Part shown: positions 25,560 through 28,560 of the stretch, piece after piece
Numbering within the stretch: position 1 is the stretch's first letter
Layout of the letters: every line of letters starts with the position of its first letter
DNA from: Neoroseomonas lacus
GTDB taxonomy: Bacteria > Pseudomonadota > Alphaproteobacteria > Acetobacterales > Acetobacteraceae
Reading direction: 5' to 3'
NCBI RefSeq assembly: GCF_014644535.1
Contig: NZ_BMKW01000001.1
Location: 558,001 to 622,000 of the forward strand
DNA length: 64,000 nucleotides
Translations under genes and position numbers: made by a program
Notes under the pieces: model-generated
What the model was told of the DNA's origin: nothing
The model's input: only the letters and a program-made list of their open reading frames with translations
Databases searched by the model: none

Positions 25560-26840
25560 ATGGCCCTGGACGACGTATCGGCCCGCGCCGTGCTGCGGCG
25601 CCTGTTCGACGCTGCGGTTGCGAGTGCTGATCCGCGCGTCGTGCTGGCGCGCCACCTGCCCGACAGGCCGCCCGGCCGCGTCCTGGTGCTCGGCGCGGGC
25701 AAATCCGCCGCGGTGATGGCCGCCGCCGTCGAGGCCGCCTGGCCCGACATCCCCCTCTCCGGCCTGGTCGTCACCCGCTACGGCCACGGCCACCCGACGT
25801 CGCGCATCGAGGTCGCCGAAGCCTCCCACCCCGTCCCCGATGAGGCCGGCGCCCGCGCCGCCCAACGCATGCTCGACCTCGCGACGCAAGCCGGTCCCGA
25901 CGACCTGGTCCTCTTCCTGGTCTCCGGCGGCGGCTCCTCCCTCACCACGCTGCCCGCCCCCGGCCTCTCCCTGCCCGACCTCATCGCAGTCAACCGTGCC
26001 CTGCTCGCCTCCGGCGCCACCATCAACGAGATGAACTGCATCCGCCGCCACCTCTCCGCCTTCTCCGGCGGGCGCCTGGCCGCCGCCGCCCACCCCGCCC
26101 GCGTCGTCACCCTCGCCATCTCCGACGTCCCCGGCGACGACCCCACCGTCATCGCCTCCGGCCCCACCGTCCCCGACCCCTCCACCTTCGCCCAGGCCCG
26201 CGCCCTCGCCGCCCACTACCGCATGCCCCTCCCCGACGCCGTCACCACCCACCTCGCCGCCGCGGCCGATGAATCCCCCAAACCCGGCGACCCGCGCCTC
26301 GCCACGACCGACTTCCGCTTCATCGCCACCCCTCTCATGGCGCTCCAAGCCGCCGCCGAGGCCGCCCGCCCCCTCGGCCTCACCCCCCTCATCCTCGGCG
26401 ACGCCCTCGAAGGCGAGGCCCGCGAACTCGGCACGGTGCTGGCCGGCATCGCGCTGTCCGCCCACACCCACGGCCACCCCTTGCCCGCCCCCTGCGTCCT
26501 CCTCTCGGGCGGCGAGACCACTGTCACCATCCGCACCACCCCGCCCGGCCGCGGCGGCCGCAACGGTGAATGCCTCCTCGGCGCCACCCTCGCTTTGGCC
26601 GCCACCCCCGGCGTCTATGCCCTCATGGCCGACACCGACGGCATCGACGGCTCCGAAGACAACGCCGGCGCTATCGCCACCCCCACCACCCTCGCCCGCG
26701 CCCACACCGCCGGCCTCGACCCGCGCACGCTGCTGGCCGCCCACGACAGCCATACCCTCTTCGCCACCCTCAGCGACCTGCTGACCACCGGCCCCACCCT
26801 GACCAACGTCAACGACTTCCGCGCCATCCTCATCACCTGA
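25560..26840 (+). CDS. ttuD: glycerate 2-kinase (MOFRL family, TtuD type)
   Basis: A 426-residue enzyme that phosphorylates D-glycerate to 2-phosphoglycerate. The N-terminal GckA/TtuD domain shows RVLVLGAGKSAAVMAAAVE, a GHPTSRIEVAEASHPVPDEAG loop and LFLVSGGGSSLTTLPAPG. The C-terminal MOFRL domain shows CVLLSGGETTVTIRTTPPGRGGRNGECLLG and ALMADTDGIDGSEDNAGA. It lies 70 bases before a pyruvate kinase gene, as in tartrate or hydroxypyruvate gene sets, so the pair could lead glycerate through 2-phosphoglycerate and PEP to pyruvate. Codons are extremely rich in C at third positions. Confidence 0.93.
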   Translation: MALDDVSARAVLRRLFDAAVASADPRVVLARHLPDRPPGRVLVLGAGKSAAVMAAAVEAAWPDIPLSGLVVTRYGHGHPTSRIEVAEASHPVPDEAGARAAQRMLDLATQAGPDDLVLFLVSGGGSSLTTLPAPGLSLPDLIAVNRALLASGATINEMNCIRRHLSAFSGGRLAAAAHPARVVTLAISDVPGDDPTVIASGPTVPDPSTFAQARALAAHYRMPLPDAVTTHLAAAADESPKPGDPRLATTDFRFIATPLMALQAAAEAARPLGLTPLILGDALEGEARELGTVLAGIALSAHTHGHPLPAPCVLLSGGETTVTIRTTPPGRGGRNGECLLGATLALAATPGVYALMADTDGIDGSEDNAGAIATPTTLARAHTAGLDPRTLLAAHDSHTLFATLSDLLTTGPTLTNVNDFRAILIT

Positions 26841-26847
26841 CGTGCAA

Positions 26848-26902
26848 CTTAATTATTGTAAGTAAAAATAAACCTCGGCAGCCGTCGCTTAATCAGGGTA
26901 AG
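26848..26902. promoter_or_regulatory. two CTTA-N7-TAAG sites upstream of the HTH-pyruvate kinase gene
   Basis: Two 15-base sites, CTTAATTATTGTAAG (26848-26862) and CTTAATCAGGGTAAG (26888-26902), share CTTAAT-A--GTAAG with inverted CTTA/TAAG ends and start exactly 40 bases apart, near four helical turns. The AT-rich first site lies in the likely promoter and the second ends 8 bases before the ATG. They are good candidates for binding by the HTH domain encoded at the start of the gene itself. Binding is untested. Confidence 0.55.
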
Positions 26903-26910
26903 ACACGCCC

Positions 26911-28560
26911 ATGCGCGACCCAACCCTCGAAGACCTCTTCGCCCGCCGCGGCGCCATCACCCGCATCGCCACCGAGCTCGGCATCTCCACCGCCGCCGTC
27001 TCCCAATGGAAACGCGTCCCCGACGACCGCGTCACGGACGTCGCCCGCATCCTCGGCGTCGCCACCCAAACCCTGCGCCCCGACCTCACCGAACCGCCCG
27101 CCCCGAAGCCGGAAGGATACGTCCGCATGGTCGCCCGCCCCGTCCTGCGCCGCCGCCGCCGCACCAAGATCATCGCGACCCTCGGCCCCGCCTCCTCCAC
27201 CATCGAGGTCATCGAACGCCTCTACCGCGCCGGCGCCGACGTCTTCCGCCTCAACTTCTCCCACGGCTCCCACGAGGACCACGCACAGCGCATCCTCATG
27301 ATCCGCGAAGTCGAACGCCGCGTCGGCCGCCCCATCGGCATCCTCGTGGACGTCCAGGGCCCCAAACTCCGCGTCGGCCAGTTCCAGGGCGGCCGCGTCC
27401 AACTGCAAACCGGCCAGACCTTCCGCCTCGACCTCAACCCCACCCCGGGCGACGTCCGCCGCGTCAACCTCCCCCACAAGGAGATCATCGCCGCTGCCCA
27501 GATCGGCACCACCCTCCTCCTCGACGACGGCAAGCTCCGCCTGCGCGTCACCCGCGTCCGCCCCGACCACCTGGAAACCGAAGTCGTCGTCGGCGGCCCG
27601 CTCTCCGACCGCAAGGGCGTCAACGTCCCCGACGTCGCCCTCCCCATCCCCGCCCTGACCGAAAAAGACCGCGCCGACCTCGACTTCGTCCTGCCCCTCG
27701 GCATCGAATACATCGGCCTGTCCTTCGTCCAACGCGCCGAGGACGTCGCCGAAACCAAGCGCATCGCCGCCGGCCGCGCCTGGGTCATGGTCAAGATGGA
27801 AAAACCCCAGGCCGTCGAAAACCTCGACAGCATCCTCGCCCTGACCGACTGCGTCATGGTCGCCCGCGGCGACCTCGGCGTCGAACTCCCCCCCGAGGAA
27901 GTCCCCCTCGTCCAGAAGCGCATCGTCCGCGCCGCCCGCGCCCTCGGCAAACCCGTGGTCGTGGCAACCCAAATGCTCGAATCCATGATCACGGCCCCAT
28001 CGCCGACCCGCGCCGAAGTCTCCGACGTCGGCACCGCGGTCTTCGACGGCGCCGACGCCGTCATGCTCTCCGCCGAGACCGCCGCCGGCCAATACCCCTA
28101 CGAAGCCGTCAACATGATGGACCGCATCGTCGCCCGCGTGGAACAGGACCCCGACTGGCGCCGCCTCACCGACACCTCCCGCCCCGCCCCCGAACGCACC
28201 AGCGCCGGCGCCATCGCCACCGCCGCCCGCCAGGTCGCCGAAACCATCGAGGCCGAGGTGATCGCCACCTTCTCCTCCACCGGCTCCACCACCCTGCGCG
28301 TCGCCCGCGAACGCCCCAACTGCCCCATCCTCGGCCTGACCGCGAGCGGCACCGCCGCCCGCCGCATGGCGGTCGTGTGGGGCGTCCACCCCCTCGAGGT
28401 CAGCGAAATCCACTCGATGACGGAAATGGTCGCCCGCGCCGTCCGCGCCGCCCAACACGAAGGCTTCGCCCAGACCGGCGACGAAGTGGTGGTCACCGCC
28501 GGGGTGCCCTTCGGCACACCAGGGACGACGAACGCATTGCGGGTGGCCGTGGTGAGGTGA
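26911..28560 (+). CDS. pyk: pyruvate kinase with N-terminal YdaS/Cro-like helix-turn-helix domain
   Basis: A 549-residue reading frame. Residues 1-57 form a YdaS/Cro-like DNA-binding domain (ITRIATELGISTAAVSQWKRV, then RVTDVARILGVATQTLRPDL). A Pro-rich linker leads into a complete pyruvate kinase from about residue 80: RRTKIIATLGPASS, FRLNFSHGSHEDH, VDVQGPKLRVG, VMVKMEKPQAV, ARGDLGVELP and TQMLESMITAPSPTRAEVSDVG. Normal enzymes (470-480 residues) begin at the kinase part. An internal ATG at 27127 with GGAAGGA upstream would give a normal 477-residue enzyme, so two products are possible. Paired sites upstream suggest self-regulation. It follows glycerate kinase. Confidence 0.93.
   Translation: MRDPTLEDLFARRGAITRIATELGISTAAVSQWKRVPDDRVTDVARILGVATQTLRPDLTEPPAPKPEGYVRMVARPVLRRRRRTKIIATLGPASSTIEVIERLYRAGADVFRLNFSHGSHEDHAQRILMIREVERRVGRPIGILVDVQGPKLRVGQFQGGRVQLQTGQTFRLDLNPTPGDVRRVNLPHKEIIAAAQIGTTLLLDDGKLRLRVTRVRPDHLETEVVVGGPLSDRKGVNVPDVALPIPALTEKDRADLDFVLPLGIEYIGLSFVQRAEDVAETKRIAAGRAWVMVKMEKPQAVENLDSILALTDCVMVARGDLGVELPPEEVPLVQKRIVRAARALGKPVVVATQMLESMITAPSPTRAEVSDVGTAVFDGADAVMLSAETAAGQYPYEAVNMMDRIVARVEQDPDWRRLTDTSRPAPERTSAGAIATAARQVAETIEAEVIATFSSTGSTTLRVARERPNCPILGLTASGTAARRMAVVWGVHPLEVSEIHSMTEMVARAVRAAQHEGFAQTGDEVVVTAGVPFGTPGTTNALRVAVVR

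Follow-up and report, generated by a model that had tools for sequence, protein, structure and literature searches.

Why does a pyruvate kinase (PK) carry a phage-type DNA-binding domain, and on which DNA could such an enzyme act? The question is raised by an open reading frame of Neoroseomonas lacus located in the window, i.e., the whole stretch of 64,000 nucleotides that was analysed. The frame 26911-28560 (plus strand) is open from ATG 26911 to its stop codon, and its product of 549 aa comprises, in this order, a Cro/YdaS-type helix-turn-helix (HTH), a flexible linker and a complete PK; this protein is called HTH-PK below. The initial annotation had reported an unbroken frame containing an HTH, a linker and a whole PK, and this description is confirmed by matches to P22_Cro over residues 14-47 and to PRK06247 over residues 80-548. 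The answer that we consider likely is that HTH-PK is an autoregulating trigger enzyme, a PK that would bind both CTTA-N7-TAAG palindromes in its own promoter via its Cro-like domain.

Domain architecture of HTH-PK

The PK part comprises residues 83-549 plus the stop codon (27157..28560, plus strand; PRK06247, E 3.8e-209). Residues 80-548 match the NCBIfam family PRK06247 with 695 bits, above the cut-off of 623, over the full-length barrel and C-terminal domains, and the PK and PK_C domains of Pfam are both matched in the 549-aa protein. The residues R113, N115, S117, D147, K295, E297, D321, and T353, which we take to be those acting in PK catalysis, are all present and are invariant in an alignment of 20 sequences. 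Judging from its sequence, HTH-PK is a PK of the PRK06247 subfamily with intact catalytic residues. A search of the N. lacus genome (6.4 Mb) at E 0.001 revealed no second PK, HTH-PK being the sole match. In G001, the complete HTH-PK gene is accompanied, some 3 kb away, by a C-terminal PK fragment (C1:710439-710900; query residues 395-549, 80% identity).

The HTH corresponds to residues 1-55 (26911..27075, plus strand), on the evidence of Pfam P22_Cro, PDB sequence matches and a structural model. When the N-terminal 72 aa were compared alone with Pfam, a comparison with HTH profiles having been proposed in the initial annotation, P22_Cro was matched with E 3.3e-8 and 33.6 bits, above its cut-off of 30.2; in the whole 549-aa protein, the score of 28.3 bits is slightly under this cut-off. 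YdaS_toxin remained below its own cut-off (26.8 vs 30). The closest PDB sequences are phage Cro 3bd1 (E 5.4e-5) and P22 Cro 1rzs (E 0.0065), and the recognition helix of HTH-PK, LGISTAAVSQWK, is nearly the same as that of P22 Cro, LGISDAAVSQWK. The structural models exhibit a five-helix HTH (residues 4-10, 15-23, 27-31, 38-48, and 52-55; mean pLDDT 73), followed by a low-confidence linker and then the kinase. Foldseek with the HTH model gave Cro 3bd1 as the top PDB match, with TM 0.56 and 0.67 and an E of only 0.13, and a PHROGs search returned regulator matches, all of them weak.

The linker (residues 56-82; 27076..27156, plus strand) contains the internal ATG 27127 (M73) and is characterised by low confidence and fast evolution, the mean pLDDT of residues 61-80 being 45-47. 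For these residues, pN/pS is 0.55 in clade 1 of the genus, 0.79 in clade 2 and 0.82 across the other genera, compared with 0.22, 0.14 and 0.43, respectively, for the HTH, and 0.20, 0.05 and 0.29 for the start of the kinase. The HTH is thus under purifying selection and the linker is relaxed.

This constraint bears on the reading in which the main product starts at ATG 27127 and is an ordinary PK, the HTH form being minor or silent. The initial annotation had leaned in this direction, as it described the internal ATG with its GGAAGGA, which are both present (GGAAGGA at 27111-27117), and suggested that the long form could act as a minor regulator. Indeed, 65 of 79 loci contain an ATG after residue 56 and before the kinase begins, 33 of the 79 exhibit a strict Shine-Dalgarno (SD) core in front of it, and the first ATG has no SD core in 79 of 80. 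However, the HTH is constrained to the same degree as the kinase start in clade 1, if roughly three times less so in clade 2; moreover, 14 of the 79 loci lack the internal ATG, and its strict SD core occurs in just the 33 mentioned. In addition, all 80 proteins start with MRD, and wherever the proximal palindrome (see below) is exact, as it is in 67 of 80 loci, the first ATG lies 8-9 nt behind it. An HTH form that is minor or silent therefore appears very improbable, and the suggestion of a minor regulator is weakened; a second, short product from ATG 27127 is possible.

Distribution of the fusion

The unbroken 1-549 reading is present in 31 of the 35 genomes of the genus, so the fusion is not due to chance; three further readings end at contig ends, and one genome (77% complete) is without a match. 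In a survey of 200 genomes of the family, 190 showed a match. Among the matches listed, 26 begin at residue 1, across 13 genera, and the remaining listed ones begin at residue 37 or beyond, mostly at 56-81, the weakest matches lying outside those listed.

A scan with an HTH alignment of the genome_contigs collection, which comprises 84,980 species with one genome each, yielded 106 relatives. The best 80 of these 106 are all HTH-PK fusions, 76 of full length and four cut by contig ends. By title, they belong to Neoroseomonas, Falsiroseomonas, Roseococcus, Belnapia, Siccirubricoccus, Humitalea, Plastoroseomonas, Paeniroseomonas, Pararoseomonas, Dankookia and other Acetobacteraceae (Roseomonas-like bacteria), and they also include metagenome bins with looser or odd titles (Rhodospirillales, Alphaproteobacteria, two as Asaia). 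Conservation in related Acetobacteraceae had been put forward as a check on the fusion, and both the genus genomes and these relatives bear it out. Stop codons between the HTH and the kinase of homologues had been named as evidence against it, and none is observed in the best 80 of the 106 relatives.

At the level of the class, 13 of 385 genomes showed an HTH match at E 1e-7. Apart from that of N. lacus, the sole frame among these 13 that is long enough for a comparable fusion is one of 588 aa in G050 (L067), which encodes an HTH-NAD(P)HX dehydratase and not a PK; the other frames are of 79-346 aa. In the 20 non-genus genomes of the class with a PK (of 24), the matches begin at residue 61 or beyond. 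On plasmids, only the kinase part was matched, among the best 5 of 104 matches. A tree built on about 150 residues, whose bootstrap had not settled, implies that the fusion label changed 12 times, no fewer than four of these changes being forced. Several unfused PK genes (among L107-L152) also seem to lie close behind the end of a glycerate kinase-like gene, as judged by eye from a similar translated tail. This suggests that the gene pair may have stayed constant while the HTH and its palindromes were acquired or lost.

Paired palindromes in front of the gene

The upstream gene (25560..26840, plus strand) encodes a DUF4147/MOFRL glycerate 2-kinase-like protein (Pfam DUF4147 2.2e-84, MOFRL 1.1e-34), presumably of the ttuD type. 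Its stop at 26840 is separated from ATG 26911 by a gap of 70 bp, in which we found paired CTTA-N7-TAAG palindromes, a new feature that is absent from the initial annotation. The distal palindrome (CTTAATTATTGTAAG; 26848..26862, no strand assigned) and the proximal palindrome (CTTAATCAGGGTAAG; 26888..26902, no strand assigned), both proposed operators, are located 3' of that stop. The proximal one begins 40 bp after the start of the distal one and ends 8 nt 5' of the ATG. In P22, the half-site is ATTTAAG.

At least one exact palindrome is present in 76 of the 79 distinct upstream regions of fused genes, and mononucleotide shuffles of these regions gave a mean of 0.11 with a palindrome and a maximum of 2. 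As a spacing control, the same arms were sought at N1-N6, N8-N11 and N13-N15, where they occur in 0-6 of the 79; at N12 they occur in 29, which we attribute to one clade with the variant CTTAACTTTTAAAAGTTAAG. Both arms are conserved and the middle is variable. Among the 79 distinct upstream regions, 66 (67 of the 80 loci) carry an exact proximal site, which begins at -23 or -24; the left arm of the site is exact in 74 regions and the right arm in 69. Eight of the 13 upstreams without an exact proximal site change only TAAG to TAAC, and two (L214 and L227) look unrelated at that offset. In 43 of the 80 named loci, an exact distal site lies between -60 and -65, and 36 of the 79 distinct upstreams are without one. 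When both sites are present (33 loci), the start-to-start spacing is 41 bp in 25, 40 or 42 bp in six, and 37 or 38 bp in two; the usual 41 bp correspond to about four helical turns. Of the five palindromes of the N. lacus genome, two are at the HTH-PK gene, and the only two in the 5.9 Mb of G003 are both at pyk.

Part of this conservation may stem from the promoter, since 56 of the 66 exact proximal sites have T as the second base beyond the right arm, which gives a TAAGNT resembling a -10 box, and since the SD core is missing before the first ATG in all but one of 80 fused loci. For the same reasons, the HTH-PK mRNA may be leaderless. The proximal site of N. lacus continues as TAAGAC, with C and not T at that base. 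The -10-like sequence and the missing SD core would suit an explanation in which a different regulator binds the palindromes, or in which they belong to the promoter, the HTH being used for oligomerisation, nucleoid tethering or another purpose. Nevertheless, the left arm, which lies beyond the -10-like box, is retained in more upstreams than the right one (74 vs 69 of 79), and the association described in the next section also argues against this explanation, which we regard as rather improbable.

Co-occurrence of the palindromes with the HTH

In a set of 77 genes, an exact palindrome is present upstream of 26 of 30 fused genes vs none of 47 unfused genes, and at least three half-sites are present upstream of 30 of 30 vs one of 47. 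The unfused genes were given a wider window of 200 nt, because their earlier starts were the nearest ATG or GTG. The lone unfused gene with at least three half-sites is L152, whose upstream region is 75% A+T, and the fused genes without an exact palindrome, which exhibit half-sites only, are three loci of genus g49 and L106. When only the other genera of the family are considered, 19 of 23 fused genes have an exact palindrome and all 23 have at least three half-sites, whereas the 46 unfused genes include none with a palindrome and 42 without any half-site. The same difference is observed within genera: the fused G061 and the unfused G176 and G232 of genus g28, and the fused G247 and the unfused G118 and G197 of genus g85, differ in palindromes accordingly.

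The related rows of this set are not independent. A phylogeny-corrected test, which used supported branches only, gave four supported independent pairs, with an average of 3.9 as expected and none against (p 0.125); this test is weak and, alone, not significant. Separate support comes from the specificity of the paired arrangement. Paired palindromes with a gap of 18-34 bp occur in nine of the 200 family genomes, once in each, and all nine directly precede an HTH-PK gene, the reversed-pattern control giving none. Single palindromes are also rare, with 2-7 per genome in 33 genomes of the genus vs 5-43 for the reversed control pattern; as GC-rich coding DNA contains few TAA and TTA triplets, we do not interpret this excess of the control as a sign of selection. 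The three other palindromes of N. lacus (L081, L082, and L083) were considered as a possible regulon and rejected since, as judged by eye from the open reading frames, one sits between convergent genes, one precedes a FAD oxidoreductase gene and one is within a coding frame.

The comparative sequence evidence for a dedicated palindrome, a putative operator, at the pyk promoter is strong, and the co-occurrence of the palindromes with the HTH suggests that the enzyme probably controls its own production. It had been proposed that HTH-PK controls its own gene or neighbouring genes. The first part of this proposal is upheld, at the level of sequence comparison, and the second is left unsupported, as the pairs are found solely before HTH-PK genes in the 200 family genomes and single copies, whose contexts were inspected in N. 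lacus, are rare.

Proposed mechanism

The DNA-binding module would be a Cro-like domain of phage type that was captured by the enzyme. Acting in pairs, the N-terminal HTH domains are predicted to bind the putative CTTA-N7-TAAG operators. Since PKs are usually tetramers and the two sites are about four turns apart, a single PK tetramer could contribute two pairs of HTH domains and thereby link both sites on one face of the DNA. Kinase ligands may, speculatively, alter DNA binding, and the protein might, as initially suggested, report on PEP or pyruvate flux. In its most developed form, which we put forward as conceivable rather than probable, the four Cro-like domains of the tetramer would bridge the two operators, and a ligand (PEP, ADP or a sugar phosphate) would switch the enzyme between catalysis and promoter binding, which would couple flux to the synthesis of the enzyme with no separate regulator.

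As the proximal site probably covers the promoter start, an HTH bound there would repress pyk; this direction of control, as opposed to activation, is conjectured from where the site lies. The opposite possibility, that the HTH activates pyk or switches with ligand, seems unlikely. Lying some 64 nt before the ATG, the distal site would be well placed for an activator, and a proximal site alone would suit repression; yet the exact distal site is missing in 36 of 79 upstreams and the exact proximal site is present in 66. Cro-type proteins, moreover, are usually repressors. The related YdaS, a Cro analogue, is reported to repress PRM933P and, at higher concentration, to bind its own promoter (PMC8630535).

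Comparison with known systems

Enzymes that also bind DNA are already known. PutA, BirA, and NadR of E. coli are among the trigger enzymes listed in PMC8249747, and they resemble HTH-PK in combining a catalytic enzyme with a DNA-binding function, which is predicted in the case of HTH-PK. According to the same paper, PutA binds only the putA-putP spacer, i.e., at its own gene and one neighbour, which makes it a close precedent (PMC8249747). In contrast, these proteins are other enzymes with other DNA-binding domains, whereas HTH-PK would join a core glycolytic enzyme to a phage Cro-like HTH.

BzdR, as presented in PMC3602430, is an HTH-XRE fused to a shikimate kinase-like domain, an ancestral kinase domain that turned regulatory and for which the loss of enzymatic activity was essential. 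BzdR and HTH-PK both exhibit an N-terminal HTH, a linker and a kinase-like domain. Unlike BzdR, which lost its activity according to that paper, HTH-PK has intact catalytic residues and is the sole PK match in its genome. A BzdR-type kinase turned sensor was rejected as an identity for HTH-PK by residues only, on the basis of this intact catalytic set.

The phage Cro proteins (Xfaso 1 Cro 3bd1, P22 Cro 1rzs) and YdaS share the HTH family of HTH-PK, but they are stand-alone phage regulators, whereas in HTH-PK the domain is fused to an enzyme. An N-terminal Cro/YdaS domain is likewise observed in HTH-TorD, HTH-NAD(P)HX dehydratase and HTH-CcdA proteins, whose partners and half-sites differ from those of HTH-PK. 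HTH-TorD proteins (Nitrate_red_del, Pfam) are encoded at L062:979-1734, L063:4600-5379, L064:3730-4512, and L066:4623-5417. An ATAG-N7-CTAT palindrome, with the N7 geometry of the HTH-PK sites and a different half-site, is present upstream of the Pfam-confirmed L064 (two copies) and L066, as well as of the relatives L237, L238, and L239 (outside the Pfam scan); none was seen before L062, L063, and L234. L067:3323-5047 encodes an HTH with an NAD(P)H-hydrate epimerase/dehydratase (YjeF_N plus Carb_kinase), and the 13-mer GTAAGCATAACTT occurs twice just upstream of it. L060:5517-5855 and L061:4521-4922 encode an HTH with CcdA-type antitoxin domains.

Biological significance

PK is among the best studied enzymes, yet we found no PK with a built-in DNA-binding domain in open-access papers. 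Fusions of an enzyme with a DNA binder being known from PutA and BirA, the apparent novelty is that a central glycolytic enzyme would form the basis of a trigger enzyme. A housekeeping gene has here been joined by a regulator domain of phage type and by matching sites, and the two co-occur across the family. Species of the same genus with and without the domain plus palindrome provide natural controls. If the proposal is true, these bacteria could use PK itself as a sensor of lower glycolysis, and single-gene feedback on a central enzyme would be open to direct testing, given an operator of 15 bp and a domain that can be separated.
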